From positions 1,571,501 through 1,635,500 of the forward strand of contig NC_010730.1 of assembly GCF_000020325.1 (NCBI RefSeq): 64,000 nucleotides of DNA, given 5' to 3'. Of this stretch, positions 1,191-63,259 are shown piece after piece (position 1 is the first letter of the stretch; every line of letters begins with the position of its first letter). Source of the stretch: Sulfurihydrogenibium sp. YO3AOP1 (GTDB lineage: Bacteria > Aquificota > Aquificia > Aquificales > Hydrogenothermaceae). The notes beneath the pieces are model-generated. The model saw nothing but the letters and a program-made list of their open reading frames with translations, was not told where the DNA came from and did no database searches. The position numbers and the translations under genes are program-made.

Positions 1191-1290
1191 TACACGTCCC
1201 CCTTTTAGTTAGTAATCATTAACCTAAATTATACCAAATTATACAAAATGCAAAATGATTTAATGCATATGTAATGATTTATTCCATTGG

Positions 1291-1426
1291 GGTGAGAAAT
1301 TAATGATCTTTATAAAATTTAAAAAGAAGGTCCTTCAAACTTACATTCTCGGATGATGAGGAACTTCCAAATGGTGTCATTCTACAGCCGGCGAAGAACC
1401 TCATACTTTTATTGAATTTCTCATCC
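1291..1426. repeat. Dispersed palindromic repeat, degenerate full copy
   Basis: It begins GGTGAGAAAT, ends with ATTTCTCATCC and contains the inner motifs GAAGGTCC and GTCATTCT...GAAGAACC. Gene order and ends match the family whose clearest copies lie at 25011-25175 and 37529-37692. It occupies most of the gap 1191-1512; nothing else is recognisable there except AT-rich upstream sequence for the Nudix gene. Confidence 0.6.
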
Positions 1427-1512
1427 ATACAAAGACTATCCTAAGTTAATATATAAATATGTTATTGGCGAAAAGTTTTTAAACAAAATAACAAAATACA
1501 AAGGAGAGTAAA

Positions 1513-5536: not shown

Positions 5537-5821
5537 TCTTCTAACCTCCTACATTTAGTTTACCTTACTAAAATTCGTTTATATTATAAATTATAAATCT
5601 CTTCAACTTTTCTTTCAATAAATTTTGTTTTATCTTTTTACTGCTATTTACAGGATATTGTATGTGAATACATGTAAACTTTTGTAAAAGATAAATACTT
5701 TCTGGAAGCTCAATTGTTATTACATATCATTCTCACTAAGAGAAAAACAGAAAATGGATTATATAAAATTTGTCTTTCAAAAAATAGAAAACATCACTGA
5801 TTTATCAAATTTTAATACTTC

Positions 5822-5895
5822 GGGTGAGGAATTCAATAAAAGTAGGAGATTCTTCGCTTCGCTCAGAATGACATCACTGGCGGTTTCCTGTCATC
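5822..5895 (+). repeat. Dispersed palindromic repeat, left half, cut by the IS110 copy
   Basis: The left arm runs from GGGTGAGGAATTCAATAAAA to GAGATTCTTCG and CAGAATGACA, then the central CTGTCATC (5888-5895). The right arm resumes at 7534 after the insertion. The preceding gap 5537-5821 is AT-rich with no gene or RNA that I can recognise. Confidence 0.85.
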
Positions 5896-5963
5896 GTATA
5901 TTAAATATACCAAAAATTTTTAAACTATAAGAGAATAAGTTTTATAGTAATTATAGACATGGG
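5896..5963 (+). mobile_element. IS110-family element, left-end remnant
   Basis: 68 bp beginning GTATATTAAATATAC, nearly identical to the upstream end of the intact element (29622-29689, opposite strand). It stops exactly where the IS256-family copy begins. The bridge-RNA region and the first two thirds of the recombinase gene are missing. Confidence 0.9.
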
Positions 5964-7256
5964 GAGACTTATCAATAATTTTGTGTCTGGATTGAAAACT
6001 TTTTATTAAACAATTGTAAAATTTCATAAGAAGCTCCTTTAAAAGCAGGTATAGGTTTTTTCCATTTTCCATTCTTTAAATTATCTCTCTGTATAAGCAG
6101 ATTTATCTCAAGAATGTCTACAGATTGAAAATATCCGCCTAAATTTATTCTTACTTTCTCTATCATGCTATTAACACTTTCAACTGGATTTGTTGTGTAT
6201 ATGTGCTTTCTTAGATTTTCTGGATATTTTAAAAAACATAAGTATCTCTCTTTGTTAGATTGAATATGTTTTATAAAGCTTGGATATTTAGATTTAAATC
6301 TACTACATAAATCATCTAATTTTTCTAATCCATCTTCATAATCTAAGCTGTTTTCTTTTATGTTTTTTAATTCTTTGTTAAATACTTGTGAATCTTCTTT
6401 ATCCATCTGATTTCTAACGTTTCTTTGTAAATGGACTAAACATAGCTGATGGTCTGTAAAAGGAAACAGTGTTTCTATGGCTTTTGATATCCCAGGAAAA
6501 TCATCACTTACTATAAGCATTATCCTTTTTAGTCCTCTATCTATTAAATCATTGAATACTTTTATCCAGTCTGCTTTGTTTTCACTACTGAAAAATGTAT
6601 AAAATCCAAATATATCTTTATTTCCTTGTAAGTCCACTCCAAGAACTACATAGACAGAAGCTTTTCTGATTTTGTTTTTCTCTTTTATATCACAGTGGTA
6701 TGCATCTATATACAGTACAAATGCATCCGATGGAAGCTCTCTTGTTTTAAAATCATTAAGTCTTTCTATAAGCTCTTTTTTAATTATATCCATATGTTGT
6801 TTTGAATAGTTTAAGCCTAAGCTTTTTAATGTAGAATCTATCTTGCTTTCTGAGTATCCATTGGATACCAAACTCATAAGAAGGTCTATATAATCTTCAT
6901 CAACTCTTTTGTAAGGGTCAGGTAATATTTGTGGTCTAAATTTACCCTTTCTATCTCTTGGAACATTTATGTTAAGCTTGAAAGAACCAGTATTTAGGCT
7001 TCTTTCATAATACCCGTTTGCTTTGTTATCATCGTCATTTTCAAGAAGAAATTTCTTTCTTGGTTCATAATCAGTTCCACAACAGATTCTAAAAGTTTTC
7101 TTATACCTATCTTTTCTTGAGTTGTTATACCGTTTGGGAAAAGTTCTTTTACTAATTCTTCAGTTGATCTGTCTAACACTTTTTCAAAGTATTCTTTTTT
7201 ATTCATTACTACTCCTCCTTATAATTTTATTTAGACACAACATTATTTTAACTCCC
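5964..7256 (-). mobile_element. IS256-family insertion sequence, copy 1 (defective)
   Basis: 1293 bp, nearly identical to copy 2 at 8286-9580. The outer ends read GAGACTTATC on the left and, inverted, GGGAGTTAAA on the right, imperfect inverted repeats of about 25 bp that share TTGTGTCT. The flanking 8-mers differ (GACATGGG left, CAAGCCCA right), so there is no target duplication. The left flank is the start of an IS110 element and the right flank is its 3' third, so about 0.9 kb of IS110 was lost at this junction. Confidence 0.9.
5972..7206 (-). pseudogene. IS256-family transposase, frameshifted
   Basis: The N-terminal 54 residues (from ATG at 7206, after AAGGAGGAG) match copy 2. A one-base deletion near 7044 (CAAGAAG instead of CAAGGAAG) then shifts the frame and ends the reading frame early (stop at 6994). 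The remaining catalytic part stays open down to 5972 and is about 99% identical to copy 2, with the DDE Asp, Asp and Glu all retained. No active transposase is expected unless frameshifting occurs. Confidence 0.9.
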
Positions 7257-7533
7257 CAAGCCCATATGAAAGTGCAGCATGTGTAAAGAAAAGTGGCTGG
7301 ATAAAAAAGATGGGAAATCCATATGCAAGGAAAATATTATACATGGCAGCATTATCAGCAATAAGGTTTAATAAATACTGCAGAGAATTATACGAAAGAT
7401 TAGTAAGTAAAGGTAAGGCTAAAAAGTTAGCATTAGTGGCTGTAGCACATAAGTTATTAAGGCAAGCATATGGTGTATTAAAAAGCAGAAGACCATTTGA
7501 TGAAAATTTTTGTACTTGACATTTAACATAGAA
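7257..7533 (+). pseudogene. IS110-family recombinase, C-terminal remnant
   Basis: It encodes the last 80-odd residues of the recombinase, almost identical to the intact copy at 28442-28704, including MGNPYARKILYMAALS and the C-terminus DENFCT. The upstream part is absent. The element end ...ATAGAA at 7533 is followed by CATCCTGA, restoring the repeat target. Confidence 0.92.
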
Positions 7534-7599
7534 CATCCTGAGGACTTTAGTCCGAAGGATCTCATTTTTAAATTCTATGAAAATTTCCGATTTCTCACC
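7534..7599 (+). repeat. Dispersed palindromic repeat, right half
   Basis: CATCCTGAGGAC, the small hairpin GGACTTTAGTCC, GAAGGATCTCA and the terminal TTTCTCACC. Joined to 5822-5895 it makes a typical family member, so the repeat was there before the insertion. Confidence 0.85.
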
Positions 7600-7748
7600 T
7601 CAAGGTATATCTGATTGTTATCAAAATACACAAGTTCTATTTTCCATTACTTTGCAACCGTAATTTAATGTAATTTTTAAAAACATTTATTTATCAAAAT
7701 CTTATGTTATTTTTTAAAATTTCTTAACATTTATTTCATACCAGATCG

Positions 7749-7948: not shown

Positions 7949-8285
7949 ATGGAAAAGGCAGATTTGCTTTTGAAGGTTGATGAAAAATACTATCCTCCAA
8001 AGGAGATAGTAGAAAATGCTTGGGTTAAAGACTATGAATCTCTTTACAAGAAGTCTATTGAGAATAGAGAGGCTTTCTATGAAGAGATTGCTAACGAATT
8101 AGAATGGTTTCAAAAGTGGGACAAAGTTTTAGAATGGAACTATCCTTATGCAAAATGGTTTGTAAATGCTAAAACAAACATCACTTATAACTGTATAGAC
8201 AGGCATGTAAAAAATGGCAAAAGAAATAAGGTGGCTTTTATCTCTGTAGATGAAGAAGGAAATGAGAGAAAGGTAACTTACGGTG
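7949..8285 (+). pseudogene. acs: Acetyl-CoA synthetase, 5' fragment (interrupted)
   Basis: The first 112 codons of acs, preceded by AGGAGGT 7 nt before ATG. It carries the family N-terminus (WFQKWDKVLEWNYPYAKWF). The frame is broken at 8285 by an IS256-family insertion. The last bases TTACGGTG (8278-8285) are repeated at 9581-9588. Joined to 9589-11144 the frame is uninterrupted: 1893 nt, 630 codons plus stop. A short fusion protein ending inside the IS would be made if this part is translated. Confidence 0.93.
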
Positions 8286-9580
8286 GAGACTTATCAATAA
8301 TTTTGTGTCTGGATTGAAAACTTTTTATTAAACAATTGTAAAATTTCATAAGAAGCTCCTTTAAAAGCAGGTATAGGTTTTTTCCATTTTCCATTCTTTA
8401 AATTATCTCTCTGTATAAGCAGATTTATCTCAAGAATGTCTACAGATTGAAAATATCCGCCTAAATTTATTCTTACTTTCTCTATCATGCTATTAACACT
8501 TTCAACTGGATTTGTTGTGTATATGTGCTTTCTTAGATTTTCTGGATATTTTAAAAAACATAAGTATCTCTCTTTGTTAGATTGAATATGTTTTATAAAG
8601 CTTGGATATTTAGATTTAAATCTACTACATAAATCATCTAATTTTTCTAATCCATCTTCATAATCTAAGCTGTTTTCTTTTATGTTTTTTAATTCTTTGT
8701 TAAATACTTGTGAATCTTCTTTATCCATCTGATTTCTAACGTTTCTTTGTAAATGGACTAAACATAGCTGATGGTCTGTATAAGGAAATAGTGTTTCTAT
8801 GGCTTTTGTTATCCCAGGAAAATCATCACTTACTATAAGCATTACCCTTTTTAGTCCTCTATCTATTAAATCATTGAATACTTTTATCCAGTCTGCTTTG
8901 TTTTCACTACTGAAAAATGTGTAAAATCCAAATATATCTTTATTTCCTTGTAAATCTATTCCAAGAACTACATAGACAGAAGCCTTTCTGATTTTGTTTT
9001 TCTCTTTTATATCACAGTGATATGCGTCTATATACAGTACAAATGCATCCGATGGAAGCTCTCTTGTTTTAAAATCATTAAGTCTTTCTATAAGCTCTTT
9101 TTTGATTTTATCCATATGTTGTTTTGAATAGTTTAAGCCTAAGCTTTTTAATGTAGAATCTATCTTGCTTTCTGAGTATCCATTGGATACCAAACTCATA
9201 AGAAGGTCTATATAATCTTCATCAACTCTTTTGTAAGGGTCAGGTAATATTTGTGGTCTAAATTTACCCTTTCTATCTCTTGGGACATTTATGTTAAGCT
9301 TGAAAGAACCAGTATTTAGGTTTCTTTCGTAGTATCCATTTGCTTTGTTATCTTCATCATTTTCAAGGAAGAAATTTCTTTCCTGATTCATGACCAGTTC
9401 TACAACAGATTCTAAAAGCTTTCTTATACCTATCTTTTCTTTGGTTGTTATACCGTTTGGGAAAAATTCTTTTACTAATTCCTCTGTGGATCTGTTTAAT
9501 ACTTTTTCAAAGTATTCTTTTTTATCCATTATCATTCCTCCTTATAAATTTAATTTAGACACAACATTATTTTAACTCCC
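8286..9580 (-). mobile_element. IS256-family insertion sequence, copy 2 (intact, in acs)
   Basis: 1295 bp flanked by the 8-bp direct repeat TTACGGTG (8278-8285 and 9581-9588), the duplication length typical of the family. Imperfect terminal inverted repeats of about 25 bp end in GAGACTTATC and GGGAGTTAAA. It is inserted antisense to acs. The clean duplication and near-identity to copy 1 point to recent movement. Confidence 0.95.
8294..9529 (-). CDS. IS256-family (mutator-type) DDE transposase
   Basis: 411 aa, full length for the family. DDE residues: Asp168 in LYIDAYHCD, Asp235 in VSDDFPGI and Glu343 in NPVESVNSM, with the C-terminal helical insertion between the last two. It cuts and joins the ends of its own element. 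Two ATGs lie close together; the second is chosen because it sits 7 nt after AAGGAGG, as in copy 1, while the first would be one base from it. Confidence 0.95.
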   Translation of the reverse strand: MDKKEYFEKVLNRSTEELVKEFFPNGITTKEKIGIRKLLESVVELVMNQERNFFLENDEDNKANGYYERNLNTGSFKLNINVPRDRKGKFRPQILPDPYKRVDEDYIDLLMSLVSNGYSESKIDSTLKSLGLNYSKQHMDKIKKELIERLNDFKTRELPSDAFVLYIDAYHCDIKEKNKIRKASVYVVLGIDLQGNKDIFGFYTFFSSENKADWIKVFNDLIDRGLKRVMLIVSDDFPGITKAIETLFPYTDHQLCLVHLQRNVRNQMDKEDSQVFNKELKNIKENSLDYEDGLEKLDDLCSRFKSKYPSFIKHIQSNKERYLCFLKYPENLRKHIYTTNPVESVNSMIEKVRINLGGYFQSVDILEINLLIQRDNLKNGKWKKPIPAFKGASYEILQLFNKKFSIQTQNY

Positions 9581-9588
9581 TTACGGTG

Positions 9589-11144
9589 AACTTTTAGATT
9601 TAGTTAGCAGACTTGCAAATGGATTAAAATCTCTTGGAATTAAAAAAGGTGATAGGGTTTCTATCTACATGCCTAACACTGTTGAAGCTGCAATAGCAAT
9701 GCTTGCTTGTGCAAGAATCGGAGCTATACATAGCGTAGTTTTTGCAGGATTTAGCGAAGGAGCTTTAAAAATCAGAATAGATGATGCTAAGGCTAAGGCT
9801 ATAATTACTGCAACTTATACAAAAAGAAGGGGTAAAAAAATACCATTATTTCCAACAGTAAAAGAAGCAATTAAAGATTTAGATTTTGTAGAAAAAATAA
9901 TACTTTTGGACAGAGATAACGAGCTTTCGGACGAGTATGAAGAGCATAACGTATTAGATTTTTACAAGCTTATCAAAAATTCATCTAAAGATTGTCCGCC
10001 TGAGATTCAAGATGCAGAAGACCCATTATTCATACTTTATACATCAGGAACAACTGGAAAGCCAAAAGGCGTTCTTCATACAACTGGCGGATACATGGTT
10101 AATACATATATGACTTCAAAATATGTTTTTGACTTAAAAGAGAACTATATTTACTGGTGTACGGCAGACGTAGGTTGGATTACTGGTCATAGCTACATTG
10201 TTTATGGACCTTTGGCTAACGGTGTTACTTCGATTATGATGGAAGGCGTGCCGGTGTATCCACATCCGGGTATTTGGTGGGAGTATGTAGAAAAGTATGG
10301 CGTTAACGTGTTCTACACAGCACCAACTGCCATAAGAATGTTAATGAGATTTGGAGATGAGATACCGGCTAAGTATGATTTGTCAACACTGAAGGTTTTA
10401 GGTTCTGTTGGTGAACCAATAAATCCAGAGGCTTGGCTATGGTACTACAAAAACATAGGAAGAGGAAAAGCGGTAATCGTTGATACATGGTGGCAAACCG
10501 AAACAGGAGCTCATATGATTACAACAGTTCCAAGCTATCCTGCAAAACCGGGTAAAGCTGGTAAACCAATGTTTGGAATTGAAGTTGCAGTAGTAAATAA
10601 GCAAGGAAATCCAATGCCACCAAATCAAGTTGGTCATTTGGTAATCAAAAACCCATGGCCTTCTATGCTTAGAACTTGCTGGGGGGAGCCAGAAAGATAT
10701 GAAAAATACTGGAATGAAATACCCGGCTACTATTCAGCAGGAGACTTAGCTGCAATAGACGAAGAAGGTTATGTGATGGTTGTTGGTAGAGCTGATGATG
10801 TTTTGAGCGTAGCAGGACACAGAATCGGTACTGCAGAAGTTGAGTCAGCTATTGTAGAAAACCATGCAGTAGCAGAAGCAGCTGTAATTGGTAAGCCAAA
10901 TGAAATCAAAGGTGAATCTATCAAAGCGTTTGTAATCTTAAAAGAAGGATATGAGCCTTCAGAAGAGTTAAAAGAAAGAATTAAAGACACTGTAAGAGAT
11001 GTTCTTGGACCAATAGCTGTTCCTGATGAGATTGAGTTTGTTGATAAATTACCAAAAACAAGAAGCGGAAAAATAATGAGAAGATTGTTAAAAGCAAGAG
11101 AACTTGGCTTAGAAATTGGCGATACTTCAACATTAGAAGAATAA
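9589..11144 (+). pseudogene. acs: Acetyl-CoA synthetase, 3' fragment (catalytic part)
   Basis: The remaining 518 codons of acs. The adenylate-forming motif YTSGTTGKPKGV, the DTWWQTETG motif and the C-terminal PKTRSGKIMRR, whose Lys is the acetylation-controlled catalytic residue, are intact. Acs makes acetyl-CoA from acetate, ATP and CoA. Separated from its start by the IS, it has no obvious ribosome site, so it is presumably inactive; an internal ATG at 9669 would lack part of the N-terminal domain. Downstream genes for porin and acetate permease suggest an acetate-use cluster. Confidence 0.93.
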
Positions 11145-21759: not shown

Positions 21760-21767
21760 TATGCGTC

Positions 21768-21976
21768 GGATGAGAAATTTAAAAAAAATTAAGATTCTTT
21801 GCACGGCTGCAGAATGACAGCATTAGATGACTTTGTCGTCCTGAGGACTTTAGTCAAAAAGGATCTTCTCTTTTAAAGAAGGTGAGCAAGTAAGTAGAGG
21901 CAATTCATGAATTGCCCATACATTGAATAAGTGAGAGGTAAAAGAAAGGAGATTTGTTCGCCGGCTGTAGAATGAC
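21768..21976 (+). repeat. Dispersed palindromic repeat copies
   Basis: One copy runs from GGATGAGAAATTT at 21768 through AGAATGACA and GTCCTGAGGACTTTAGTC to AAGGTGAG at 21886. A second half (GGAGATTTGTTCG...TAGAATGAC) ends at about 21976. Between them lies the GGCAATTC palindrome. The copy abuts the zinc operon promoter. Confidence 0.65.
21899..21916. repeat. GGCAATTCATGAATTGCC palindrome
   Basis: A perfect 18-bp palindrome. Diverged copies lie at 41550-41567 and 63091-63110, also in intergenic DNA beside the other repeats. Confidence 0.55.
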
Positions 21977-24928: not shown

Positions 24929-25010
24929 TCTTATATCTTTTGAATTTTGTAGAATTCCCTACCTGATATGTTTAACACCAATTTACTTATTAATACATAA
25001 ATTCTATACT

Positions 25011-25175
25011 GGGTGAAAAATTCAATAAAAGCATGAGATTCTTCGCTTTGCTCAGAATGACAAATAAGATTGCCCTTTTTCTAATGTTTATCAATCAACC
25101 TTTTCCTGTCATCCTGAGGCCGTAATGCCGAAGGATCTCATTTTTAAATTCTATAAAAATTACTAATTTCTCACT
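25011..25175 (+). repeat. Dispersed palindromic repeat, full copy with empty IS110 target
   Basis: The left end is GGGTGAAAAATTCAATAAAA and the right end is ACTAATTTCTCACTC. The two arms are inverted relatives (GAGATTCTTCG...CAGAATGACA against TGTCATCCTGAGG...GAAGGATCTCA). The centre holds CTGTCATCCTGA (25106-25117), the exact bridge-RNA target, unoccupied. Confidence 0.88.
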
Positions 25176-25219
25176 CAAGGTATAAATTCTATATTAAGAT
25201 TAAAATACTAAACTTATCC

Positions 25220-28368: not shown

Positions 28369-28427
28369 GAAAGAATCTTCTTTTTCCTCTCTTTTAAAAG
28401 AGAAGATCCTTCACTTCGTTCAGGATG
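28369..28427 (+). repeat. Palindromic repeat half, left of the intact IS110 copy
   Basis: AGAAGATCCTTCACTTCG then TTCAGGATG. The central core GATG (28424-28427) recurs at 29690-29693 on the other side of the element. Confidence 0.8.
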
Positions 28428-28441
28428 TTCTATGTTAAATG

Positions 28442-29428
28442 TCAAGTACAAAAATTTTCATCAAATGGTCTTCTGCTTTTTAATACACCATATGCTTGCC
28501 TTAATAACTTATGTGCTACAGCTACTAATGCTAACTTTTTAGCCTTACCTTTACTTACTAACCTCTCGTATAATTCTCTGCAGTATTTGTTAAACCTTAT
28601 TGCTGATAATGCTGCCATGTATAATATTTTCCTTGCATATGGATTTCCCATCTTTTTTATCCGGACACTTTTCTTTACACATGCTGCACTTTCATATGGG
28701 CTTGGATTAATTCCTATAAAACTCGATATATCTTTTACACTCTTAAATCTTTCAAAATTTCCATATACTGATATTATCATTCCTATAGTCCTATCACTTA
28801 TACCAGGTATACTTTTTAAAAGTTTGTATTCCTCTTGATAATTCTTCTTAGACAATTCTTTTATCTCTTTCTCAAGTTCTTTTATGTTTTTTTCTATTTT
28901 TCTAATTAGCTCATCGTAATATTCTAAATTCTCTTTCAATTTTTTCATTGGTACATAGGTTAACGATTCTCTTTTGTTTCTTAGCATTGTAAGCTGCTGT
29001 TGTAAGTCTTCCAATATCTTTAGTTTTACTTCTATTTCTTTTTCTACATCTGATTTTGGTTTATAAAGCTCTCCATCGAAAAACGTTCTTCCATATTCTG
29101 CAATAAAGAATGAATCAGCTTTATCTGTTTTGACTCTTGTCATTTTAGCTTCCATAAATTTCTTTATCGAAAATGGATTTATTACTGCTACATTATAGTC
29201 ATTTTCATACAGATAATTAGCAAGCTTTAAATGGTAAACTCCCGTATGCTCCATTATGATAAGCATATCTGACTTTTTAAACTTCTTCAAAAATGGCTTT
29301 ACTTTCATTTCAAACTCAACCGGGTCAGATTTAACTTCAAAAGTTTCTTTCTTGTTATCATACAAAACTGTAGCAGTGAATGAGTTTTTAGATACATCAA
29401 CTCCTATAACAATTTTGTAGCTGTTCAT
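28442..29428 (-). CDS. IS110-family DEDD recombinase
   Basis: 328 aa from the ATG that follows GGAGG by 8 nt. The RuvC-like domain has Asp11 (GVDVSK), Glu60 (EHTGVYH), Asp102 and Asp105 (KTDKADS). A coiled coil spans about 130-200. The Tnp domain holds SIPGIS and GINPSPYESAACVKKS, in which Ser247 is the likely nucleophile. These enzymes use a bridge RNA to pair element and target DNA and exchange strands at a short core. It appears intact and full length. Confidence 0.95.
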   Translation of the reverse strand: MNSYKIVIGVDVSKNSFTATVLYDNKKETFEVKSDPVEFEMKVKPFLKKFKKSDMLIIMEHTGVYHLKLANYLYENDYNVAVINPFSIKKFMEAKMTRVKTDKADSFFIAEYGRTFFDGELYKPKSDVEKEIEVKLKILEDLQQQLTMLRNKRESLTYVPMKKLKENLEYYDELIRKIEKNIKELEKEIKELSKKNYQEEYKLLKSIPGISDRTIGMIISVYGNFERFKSVKDISSFIGINPSPYESAACVKKSVRIKKMGNPYARKILYMAALSAIRFNKYCRELYERLVSKGKAKKLALVAVAHKLLRQAYGVLKSRRPFDENFCT

Positions 29429-29460
29429 AATAGTACCTCCTTTCATAAAATACTTGACAT

Positions 29461-29620: not shown

Positions 29621-29689
29621 CCCATGTCTATAATTATTATAAAACTTATTCTCTTATAGTTTAAAAAATTTTTAGTATATTTAATATAC

Positions 29690-29940
29690 GATGACAAGGA
29701 AGACAAGATCCTTAGGACTAAAATCCTCAGGATGACAGTGAAATAAATAATGGTGTCATTCTGCAGCCGATGAAGAATCTCCAGGTTTTTTCATATCCTG
29801 CTCTGTCATTCTGAGCGTAAGCGAAGAATCTCCTCCCTTTCTTACCCCCATCACTTCTTATTTTCTCACTTTTTAAAAGAGAAGATTCTTCGGACTAAAG
29901 TCCTCAAGATGACAGTCAAAGGTAAACTTACAAAAATTTT
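29690..29940 (+). repeat. Cluster of palindromic repeat halves
   Basis: GATGACAAGG then AGATCCTTAGGAC and TCAGGATGACAG (29727-29738, an exact empty IS110 target). Further halves follow: TGTCATTCTGCAGCC...AAGAATCTCC, TGTCATTCTGAGCG...AAGAATCTCC and GAAGATTCTTCGGAC...GATGACAG. The tail CTTACAAAAATTTTTTACA recurs at 53904-53920. No gene is visible in the remainder up to 29998. Confidence 0.8.
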
Positions 29941-37359: not shown

Positions 37360-37528
37360 AAAGTGAGCAGGAGTGGTTCACGAGACAAAGTCCGAAAGAT
37401 TTCTTCTTAGATTTTGTAAAATTTATCAATACCCTTCCGAAGATATTTTATTAATCATTAATAATATAAAGGCAAAGGCTTAAATAATTTCTATACCGAT
37501 CAATTATTTCTAATAAATATACACGTCA

Positions 37529-37692
37529 GGTGATAAATTCAATAAAAGCAGGAGATTCTTCGCCGGCTGCAGAATGACAAATAAGGTTATCCTTCCTTTA
37601 ATGTTTATCATTCAACCTTTGACTGTCATCCTGAGGACGTAAGTCCGAAGGATCTCATTTTTAAATTCTATGAAAATCACTAATTTCTCACC
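37529..37692 (+). repeat. Dispersed palindromic repeat, full copy with empty IS110 target
   Basis: From GGTGATAAATTCAATAAAAG to ACTAATTTCTCACC. It has the same inner arms as 25011-25175 and the centre CTGTCATCCTGAGGAC (target 37623-37634). In the rest of the gap 37360-37704 there is one decayed fragment, AAAGTCCGAAAGATTTCTTC (37386-37405), and AT-rich DNA. Confidence 0.88.
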
Positions 37693-37704
37693 CCTCAAGG
37701 CATA

Positions 37705-48052: not shown

Positions 48053-48093
48053 AAGAAACCAATATTGCTTTAAATATTGCTTTATAATACGTC

Positions 48094-48201
48094 GGGTGAG
48101 AAATTCAGCAAAAAGAGGAGATTCTTCGCTTCGCTCAGAATGACATACAAGGTTATCCTTCCTTTAATGCGTATCATTCAACCTTTTGTTTGTCATCCTG
48201 A
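48094..48201 (+). repeat. Palindromic repeat, truncated right arm
   Basis: GGGTGAGAAATTCAGCAAAA, GAGATTCTTCGCTTCGC and the centre TGTCATCCTGA (48191-48201). The right arm is missing after the centre, as if deleted there. Confidence 0.85.
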
Positions 48202-48250
48202 GAAGGTATATTACTTTATAATAAATCAAAAAATCAAAAATTCTATCTAT

Positions 48251-53737: not shown

Positions 53738-53930
53738 TCGTCATCTGCAACTACAATTAAGAATCTCTGCCTTCATGCTCATACTCTGCCATTCTGAAGT
53801 CAGTGAAGAATCTTCTTTCTTTCTCTCTCACTTATTCACTTTCTCACTTTTTAAAGAAGAGATCCTTCGGACTTACGTCCTCAGGATGACAATCAAGGAA
53901 AAGCTTACAAAAATTTTTACAACACTCTCT
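53738..53930 (+). repeat. Palindromic repeat cluster between bamA and skp
   Basis: GAAGAATCTTC, a CTCACTT array, then GAGATCCTTCGGACTTACG, TCAGGATGACA (53881-53891, a near-exact IS110 target on the minus strand) and the CTTACAAAAATTTTTACA tail. Confidence 0.75.
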
Positions 53931-61903: not shown

Positions 61904-62095
61904 GACTGTTCTAAAATTTTTGTAAGCTGTGAAAGGTGTATGCAAAATGTATCTTTGCTCGTCATTTCTGAGGACTTTAGTATGAAGGATTTCTTCTTTT
62001 AAAAGTTAGAAAGGAAGAAGATTTTTCGCTTCGCTCAGAATGGCACCATAGGGAAATAAAGAAGGAGATTCTTTTATTATTCTCAAAATGATGAA
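61904..62095 (+). repeat. Degenerate palindromic repeat cluster
   Basis: GTCATTTCTGAGGACTTTAG, GAAGGATTTCTTC, AAGATTTTTCGCTTCGC and CAGAATGGCA. The AATTTTTGTAAG at 61916-61927 is the inverse of the CTTACAAAAATT tail. It fills the gap 61901-62219; the remainder is AT-rich upstream sequence of the cytochrome gene. Confidence 0.6.
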
Positions 62096-62963: not shown

Positions 62964-63045
62964 AGGTTAATTTTAATTAATTGATTATAACTAATTCGGA
63001 ACACATTGGACTAGAAATTATAATTTTTATGGAATATAGATAATG

Positions 63046-63195
63046 GGATCCTTCGGACTTACGTCCTCAGGATGACAAAAAGTGGAAAAAGGCCAATTCA
63101 TAAATTGCTCGTAGACATCGTGCATTAATGGTTGCATTATATGTAATTCTGCAGCCGACGAGGAATTTTATACTTTTACCCAATTTCTCATCTGA
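63046..63195 (+). repeat. Palindromic repeat halves and GGCCAATTC palindrome
   Basis: GGATCCTTCGGACTTACG then TCAGGATGACA (63067-63077, near-exact IS110 target). A diverged palindrome GGCCAATTCATAAATTGC lies at 63091-63108, then ATTCTGCAGCCGACGAGGAA and AATTTCTCATC. This fills the gap 62916-63259. Confidence 0.7.
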
Positions 63196-63259
63196 TGTAT
63201 TTATTATGTTGAAATTTGACTGAGTTATAACATTTAAAAATATAAGGAGAATATTTATT

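Follow-up and report, generated by a model that had tools for sequence, protein, structure and literature searches.

The window, that is the whole stretch of 64,000 nucleotides that was analysed, has a GC content of 31% and lies in the genome of a thermophilic bacterium, a host genome that consists of a single contig of 1,838,442 bp. It contains members of a repeat family with inverted ends, which are collected with the hairpin units found in the window in Table 1. An acetyl-CoA synthetase-type gene is split (7949-11144), with the N-terminal domain at 7949-8317, the AMP-binding domain continuing at 9669-11144 and, separating the halves, the gene of an IS256-family transposase on the minus strand (8294-9535). 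This transposase gene and a second IS256-family transposase gene (5972-6877), 2.3 kb apart, share 300 identical bases; the latter is flanked by the left and right MITE halves of Table 1, which may originally have been one MITE. A repeat of about 80 bp, AAAAATTTTTAAACTATAAGAGAATAAGTTTTATAGTAATTATAGACATG, occurs in inverted orientation at 5884-5963 and 29621-29701, and a closely similar sequence forms the left flank of the IS982-like IS in genome G002 (L053). An IS110-family element is located at 28442-29446 and a 286-bp inverted fragment, 98% identical, at 7256-7541; each of the two has a hairpin unit near one of its ends.

The repeat element

Repeat strings were counted in the window and in the genome; genome-wide counts were taken from searches, and alignments were made from retrieved sequence stretches. 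With up to one mismatch, GGTGAGAAATT was found 13 times in the window (2.2 expected; none of 100 shuffles reached 13), and with up to two mismatches TGTCATCCTGAG was found 15 times (3.1 expected from shuffles). A genome-wide BLAST search with the copy at 37523-37698 gave 45 matches, of which about 40 were nearly full-length, the hairpin core TGTCATYCTGAG was counted 221 times against 0 for the reversed control, and the terminal repeat, with up to three mismatches, 234 times against 32 in the control, an excess of about 200. The family of palindromic repeats proposed in a sequence-only reading is thus real and is present in genome-wide excess. Conservation in an alignment of 30 genome copies ended at ACGTCGGGTGAGAAATT on the left and at AATTTCTCACCCAAGGT on the right, giving an element of about 176 bp (172-180 bp in most copies) with IS982-type ends, ACGTCGGGTGAGAAATT...AATTTCTCACCYAAGGT. 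The earlier span 25011-25175 therefore contained the element and missed its ends, which lie about 5 bp further out on each side.

The inverted pairing of the repeats was seen in the window as first described, and the earlier estimate of at least ten full, half or decayed copies agrees with two full copies, six partial or decayed copies and additional hairpin units without terminal inverted repeats (TIRs). Near-exclusive intergenic position was likewise upheld, as none of the 34 full-size copies in the genome shared 60 bp or more with an ORF of at least 80 amino acids. The element is short, ORF-free, bounded by TIRs and high in copy number, as a MITE is.

Table 1. Copies of the MITE, their parts and separate hairpin units in the window (positions are those of the window).
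Feature	Position	Strand	Basis or remark
Full MITE, copy first noted, corrected ends	25006-25181	+	30-copy alignment; TIR pair by pattern
Left TIR ATACTGGGTGAAAAATT (family consensus ACGTCGGGTGAGAAATT)	25006-25022	+	Alignment, pattern
Right TIR AATTTCTCACTCAAGGT	25165-25181	-	Alignment, pattern
Left flanking direct repeat ATAAATTCT, 9/9	24997-25005	+	Remnant of a longer duplication, if any existed
Right flanking direct repeat ATAAATTCT	25182-25190	+	Flank comparison
Hairpin unit 1 within MITE, minus strand reading TGTCATTCTGAGCAAAGCGAAGAATCTC	25035-25062	-	
Hairpin unit 2 within MITE, TGTCATCCTGAGGCCGTAATGCCGAAGGATCTC	25107-25139	+	
Second full MITE copy, flanking repeats 22/27	37523-37698	+	BLAST, flank comparison
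Decayed MITE, left TIR degenerate, right TIR good	63003-63198	-	
Decayed MITE, 4 mismatches in each TIR	1285-1431	-	
MITE left half: TIR and hairpin unit	5817-5890	+	
MITE right half: hairpin unit and TIR	7534-7605	+	
Decayed MITE: left TIR and two hairpin units, without right end	21763-21880	+	
MITE: perfect left TIR and two units, without right end	48089-48202	+	
Four clustered hairpin units without IS982-type TIRs	29704-29917	n/a	
Two hairpin units without TIRs	53787-53891	n/a	
Two hairpin units without TIRs	61965-62046	n/a	
Single hairpin unit adjoining IS110-type element	28395-28430	-	

Target duplications and a partner insertion sequence

The left and right flanks of a single copy resembled each other over some 24-32 bp, forming imperfect direct repeats. 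Mismatched flank pairs, 0.8% of which reached the threshold, served as the null; repeats above it were found in 18 of the 34 full-size copies and were very strong in 12 (24-32 bp), and a clear duplication was absent in the other 16, which would fit decay. The copy first noted keeps only 9 bp. At L043, a 196-bp copy is flanked by a perfect 24-bp repeat, and the collinear regions of G002 (24/24) and G005 (22/24) lack the element and hold this sequence once; on comparison of these three genomes, repeat and single-copy empty sites together bear the standard mark of insertion with target duplication. The target duplications that the sequence-only reading had proposed looking for were thus found, with an empty site in two relatives. 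A second copy tried as an empty-site case (L018) is common to G005 and apparently also to G002, and the copy first noted is common to G002 and absent from G004 and G006, where its exact joint was not seen because the intergenic region is too divergent; judged by this distribution, both are older insertions than that at L043. Copies were gained and lost among close relatives, and within the genus copies common or not common to species offer a ready relative clock of insertion.

Among the stretches retrieved around unassigned ends, an 839-bp element (L042:3002-3840) was found that has the MITE's ends and a 26-bp duplication and contains an ORF of 241 aa, the best family match of which is IS982. 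The ends common to the MITE, to this IS and to its intact relatives are ACSYYGRGTGAGAAATT. Similarity between MITE and IS is confined to the terminal 17 bp or so, and the MITE is not simply this IS with an internal deletion. Aligned with an intact relative, the L042 transposase shows a 39-aa internal deletion spanning GDKGYRG, the segment presumed to hold the second catalytic Asp. The same type of IS, at about 95-97% identity, is present in G002 and G005, the other two hairpin-bearing members of the genus; G001 and G003 have neither IS nor hairpins, and in G004 (1,640,877 bp) and G006, where hairpins are likewise missing, the IS belongs to another lineage (51% identity). In the sister genome G002, many fragments of the same IS were found and many contigs end inside it, which may point to many intact copies; in one contig the frame is open across the GDKGYKG segment. 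With copy number, target duplications, an empty site and a partner transposase with matching ends, which had also been proposed as a thing to seek, the label MITE-like was borne out. Two other candidates within the window were rejected as partners: the IS256 transposases, since the IS256 end visible at about 5963 is unlike GGTGAGAAATT, and the IS110 transposases, since IS110 elements are not known to have such TIRs.

DDE transposases normally cut with a fixed stagger, which the shape of the complex between protein and DNA determines. Perfect duplications of 18 full-length IS copies of G004, G006 and G031 measured 23, 23, 24, 24, 24, 25, 25, 26, 27, 27, 27, 28, 28, 28, 32, 33, 34 and 38 bp, a length more variable than is usual for a DDE enzyme, and a strong duplication was present in 19 of 28 full-length copies. 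The nick ends of the 18 perfect cases, counted on both strands, were C^AT in 20 of 36 and A^AT in 8 of 36, and AT content was 84% inside the duplicated stretch against 63% in the adjoining 15 bp. An IS copy from another genus (G085) has a duplication that matches at 26 of 27 positions. Across these genomes the long duplication appears as a property of the IS group.

The hairpin unit

The inner arms of the element are hairpin units of about 28-33 nt with the form TGTCATYCTGAG-(variable)-GAAGRATCTC and the foot TGTC/ATCTC. In a sample of 86 distinct units from the host genome, the outer Y-R pair was T-A in 49 and C-G in 32, the remaining 5 having a mismatch or wobble (Fisher p ~1e-17), and in 27 units of equal length all nine stem pairs were Watson-Crick in at least 24. 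The compensating arm changes claimed earlier were therefore upheld in so far as stem pairs covary, and the example given for them, GGCCGTAATGCC, was not, being only half compensated: its third pair has changed from A-T to C-G and its fourth pair is broken. Fully compensated arms, GGCCGTAAGGCC and GGCCGCAAGGCC, are present elsewhere in the genome. Stem covariation is real and strong; selection of the hairpin, one of the two options named in the sequence-only reading, may be its source, and arm-templated correction or the spread of subfamilies could also yield it without selection on RNA.

TIR-bounded elements of the host genome contain two to four units each, and units occur outside elements too. 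The sequence TGTCATYCTGAGCGAAGCGAAGRATCT, a 27-nt version of the unit, was matched exactly by at least 119 stretches from other genomes. Among the matches listed are the complete Candidatus Brocadia pituitae genome and sequences from Acidobacteria, Bacteroidales, Lachnospiraceae, Chloroflexi, Nitrospirae, Planctomycetes, Ignavibacteria, Verrucomicrobia and Gemmatimonadetes. Conservation in these genomes is limited to the hairpin unit, inverted pairs are frequent, and a 22-nt core reaches 95-119 copies in G044, G045 and G058. The hairpin had no Rfam match, a literature search gave no relevant context for the long hairpin strings, and shorter fragments had only unrelated matches among the literature matches listed. 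In some copies (L043:3002-3197, L045:3002-3197 and L034:3001-3260) an extra palindrome, GTAAGGGCGATTCATGAATCGCCC or a close variant, lies between two hairpin units, which suggests modular interiors.

The sequence-only reading had also suggested that the hairpin drives the spread of the repeat. This was not supported. The hairpin is missing from the partner IS, and in G031 a 209-bp MITE of the IS982-related group (L093:248-456) that shares the ends and has a 23-bp duplication contains the palindromes GGCGGGTCTTGAACCCGCC and GGCAGGTTTAAAACCTGCC, which are quite different from the hairpin unit. Since the IS lacks the hairpin and the L093 MITE has other palindromes, the unit would be cargo for the element; by its occurrence outside the element and in many phyla it is best described as a separate unit, for which we infer a passenger role. 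That the unit is identical across phyla raises the question of what moves it.

Proposed mechanism and alternatives

From the ends, the copy number, the duplications, the empty site that two relatives show, the matching IS and the presence of the unit in other phyla, all of them read from sequence, the element is very probably a MITE moved in trans by an IS982-related DDE transposase, with the hairpins as captured passengers. The MITE would be a non-autonomous derivative served by a DDE transposase from an IS982-related group found across Aquificota, which would recognise the 17-bp ends ACSYYGRGTGAGAAATT. The two 3' ends (...GT-3') would be joined to different strands of an intergenic stretch rich in AT, in most cases at C^AT and with a stagger of 23-38 nt, the spacing between the two attack sites being only loosely constrained, and repair of the gaps would leave a long duplication of 23-38 bp. 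The two inner arms would be separate palindromic units, taken up between the two ends and copied along as passengers. Since the only near-complete matching IS in the host genome is without the segment of the second Asp, the copies there are probably immobile now; movement in trans, the staggered cut and this loss of activity are what we infer from the comparisons above. A wider reading is put forward only tentatively and is rather less likely to hold than to fail. In it, each of the two ends in a DDE group of Aquificota would choose its own C^AT site, one on either strand of an AT-rich stretch, so that duplications vary from 23 to 38 bp; a unit of about 28-33 nt, found in identical form across phyla and in multiple copies in many genomes, would travel inside such elements and spread with no recognised transposase. 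If true, independent choice of C^AT by each end, perhaps on DNA that has melted locally in a hot environment, would break the usual rule of a fixed stagger; a compact transposase with clean duplications of 23-38 bp makes independent target choice by the two ends directly testable.

Insertion might instead be aimed at promoters, with the -10 region duplicated so that neighbouring genes keep their expression; TATAAT-like sequences do lie inside many duplications and 31 of 34 copies are upstream of at least one gene. This is unlikely, however, as TATAAT-like content (27) was not above that of dinucleotide shuffles overall (25.4, p 0.31) and the bias in gene context was not significant (p 0.05-0.13); for the IS duplications alone the same comparison, by count, gave p 0.03. 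Less probable again is a role in RNA, in which the hairpins would be terminators or stabilisers of mRNA under selection and mobility would be secondary. The covarying stem pairs speak for it, and the RNA of the copy first noted folded better than shuffles (z = -3.0), but most of the extra folding is due to the element's own inverted arms, the DNA folding of the second copy was unremarkable (z = -1.35), and the lack of an Rfam match and the gain and loss of copies among close relatives do not favour it. Convergent genes, between which terminators are expected, flank only 3 of 34 copies, a trend that was not significant, and a terminator role was rejected for want of significant bias in gene context.

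Mobilisation of the hairpin units by a RAYT (Y1 HUH transposase), as in REP/REPIN systems and with the outer ends incidental, is very improbable: although the units are short, palindromic, mostly intergenic and in inverted pairs in many genomes, and a Y1 transposase above the family cut-off was found in 17 of the 21 hairpin-bearing genomes searched, there was none in G002 or G005, a true unit lay within about 1.5 kb of only 1 of 30 Y1 loci in hairpin-bearing genomes (L237), and fixed outer ends with long target duplications would be left unexplained. The host genome's only Y1 transposase is of the IS605 type beside TnpB, with the motif not nearby (at L001, this TnpA has a TnpB-like and an integrase-like ORF as neighbours). 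RAYT was rejected as engine for the lack of a consistent association in the host genome and the 21 hairpin-bearing genomes, and the ends and duplications already contradict it as what now moves the 176-bp element in this genome.

Comparison with known systems

The proposed movement of the MITE in trans by an IS982-related transposase would place the element next to several described groups. Like the IS982 family, the IS group found here is about 1 kb long (959-966 bp here), encodes one DDE transposase of about 285 aa and has TIRs that begin with 5'-AC and have T at position 9. The family TIR is 5'-AC(N)6T(N)5TT (PMC7335449); AC and T9 agree with it and the final TT is one position off. The best NCBIfam match of the transposases was NF033520 IS982, with scores of 21-48 bits that fall below the curated cut-off of 130, and the group is therefore called IS982-related and not a member of IS982. 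Duplications of 2-10 bp were given for 69 analysed IS982 members (PMC7335449), in contrast to 23-38 bp in the 18 perfect cases here, and no paper on long duplications in IS982 was found in the literature search.

Unusually long duplications are shared with part of the IS1202 family (16-28 bp; PMC10132070), the characterised long-duplication members of which are 1.5 kb in length and have a Tn7 TnsB-like transposase of more than 440 aa and TGT ends (PMC10132070), whereas the transposases here match IS982/IS5-type models. Duplications of 2-60 bp are mentioned for IS1182 (PMC7335449); together with those of IS1202, they make long duplications in themselves already known.

The hairpin units resemble REP/REPIN sequences in being short, palindromic, mostly intergenic and often in inverted pairs, and the element differs from REP/REPIN in that no RAYT was found here, in its IS982-type ends and duplications and in a unit sequence of its own; in a paper on the GTAG and CGTC superfamilies of REP, neither the string GTCATTCT nor GTCATCCT occurs. 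Like bacterial MITEs such as BOX, RUP, Nezha and MITEAba12, the element is short, non-coding, TIR-bounded and flanked by a duplication, and movement in trans would be a further likeness. It is unlike bacterial MITEs generally in its long and variable duplication and in an interior of palindromic units common across phyla. What is new is that duplications in an IS982-related group are so long and variable, and that many phyla have a hairpin unit in common.
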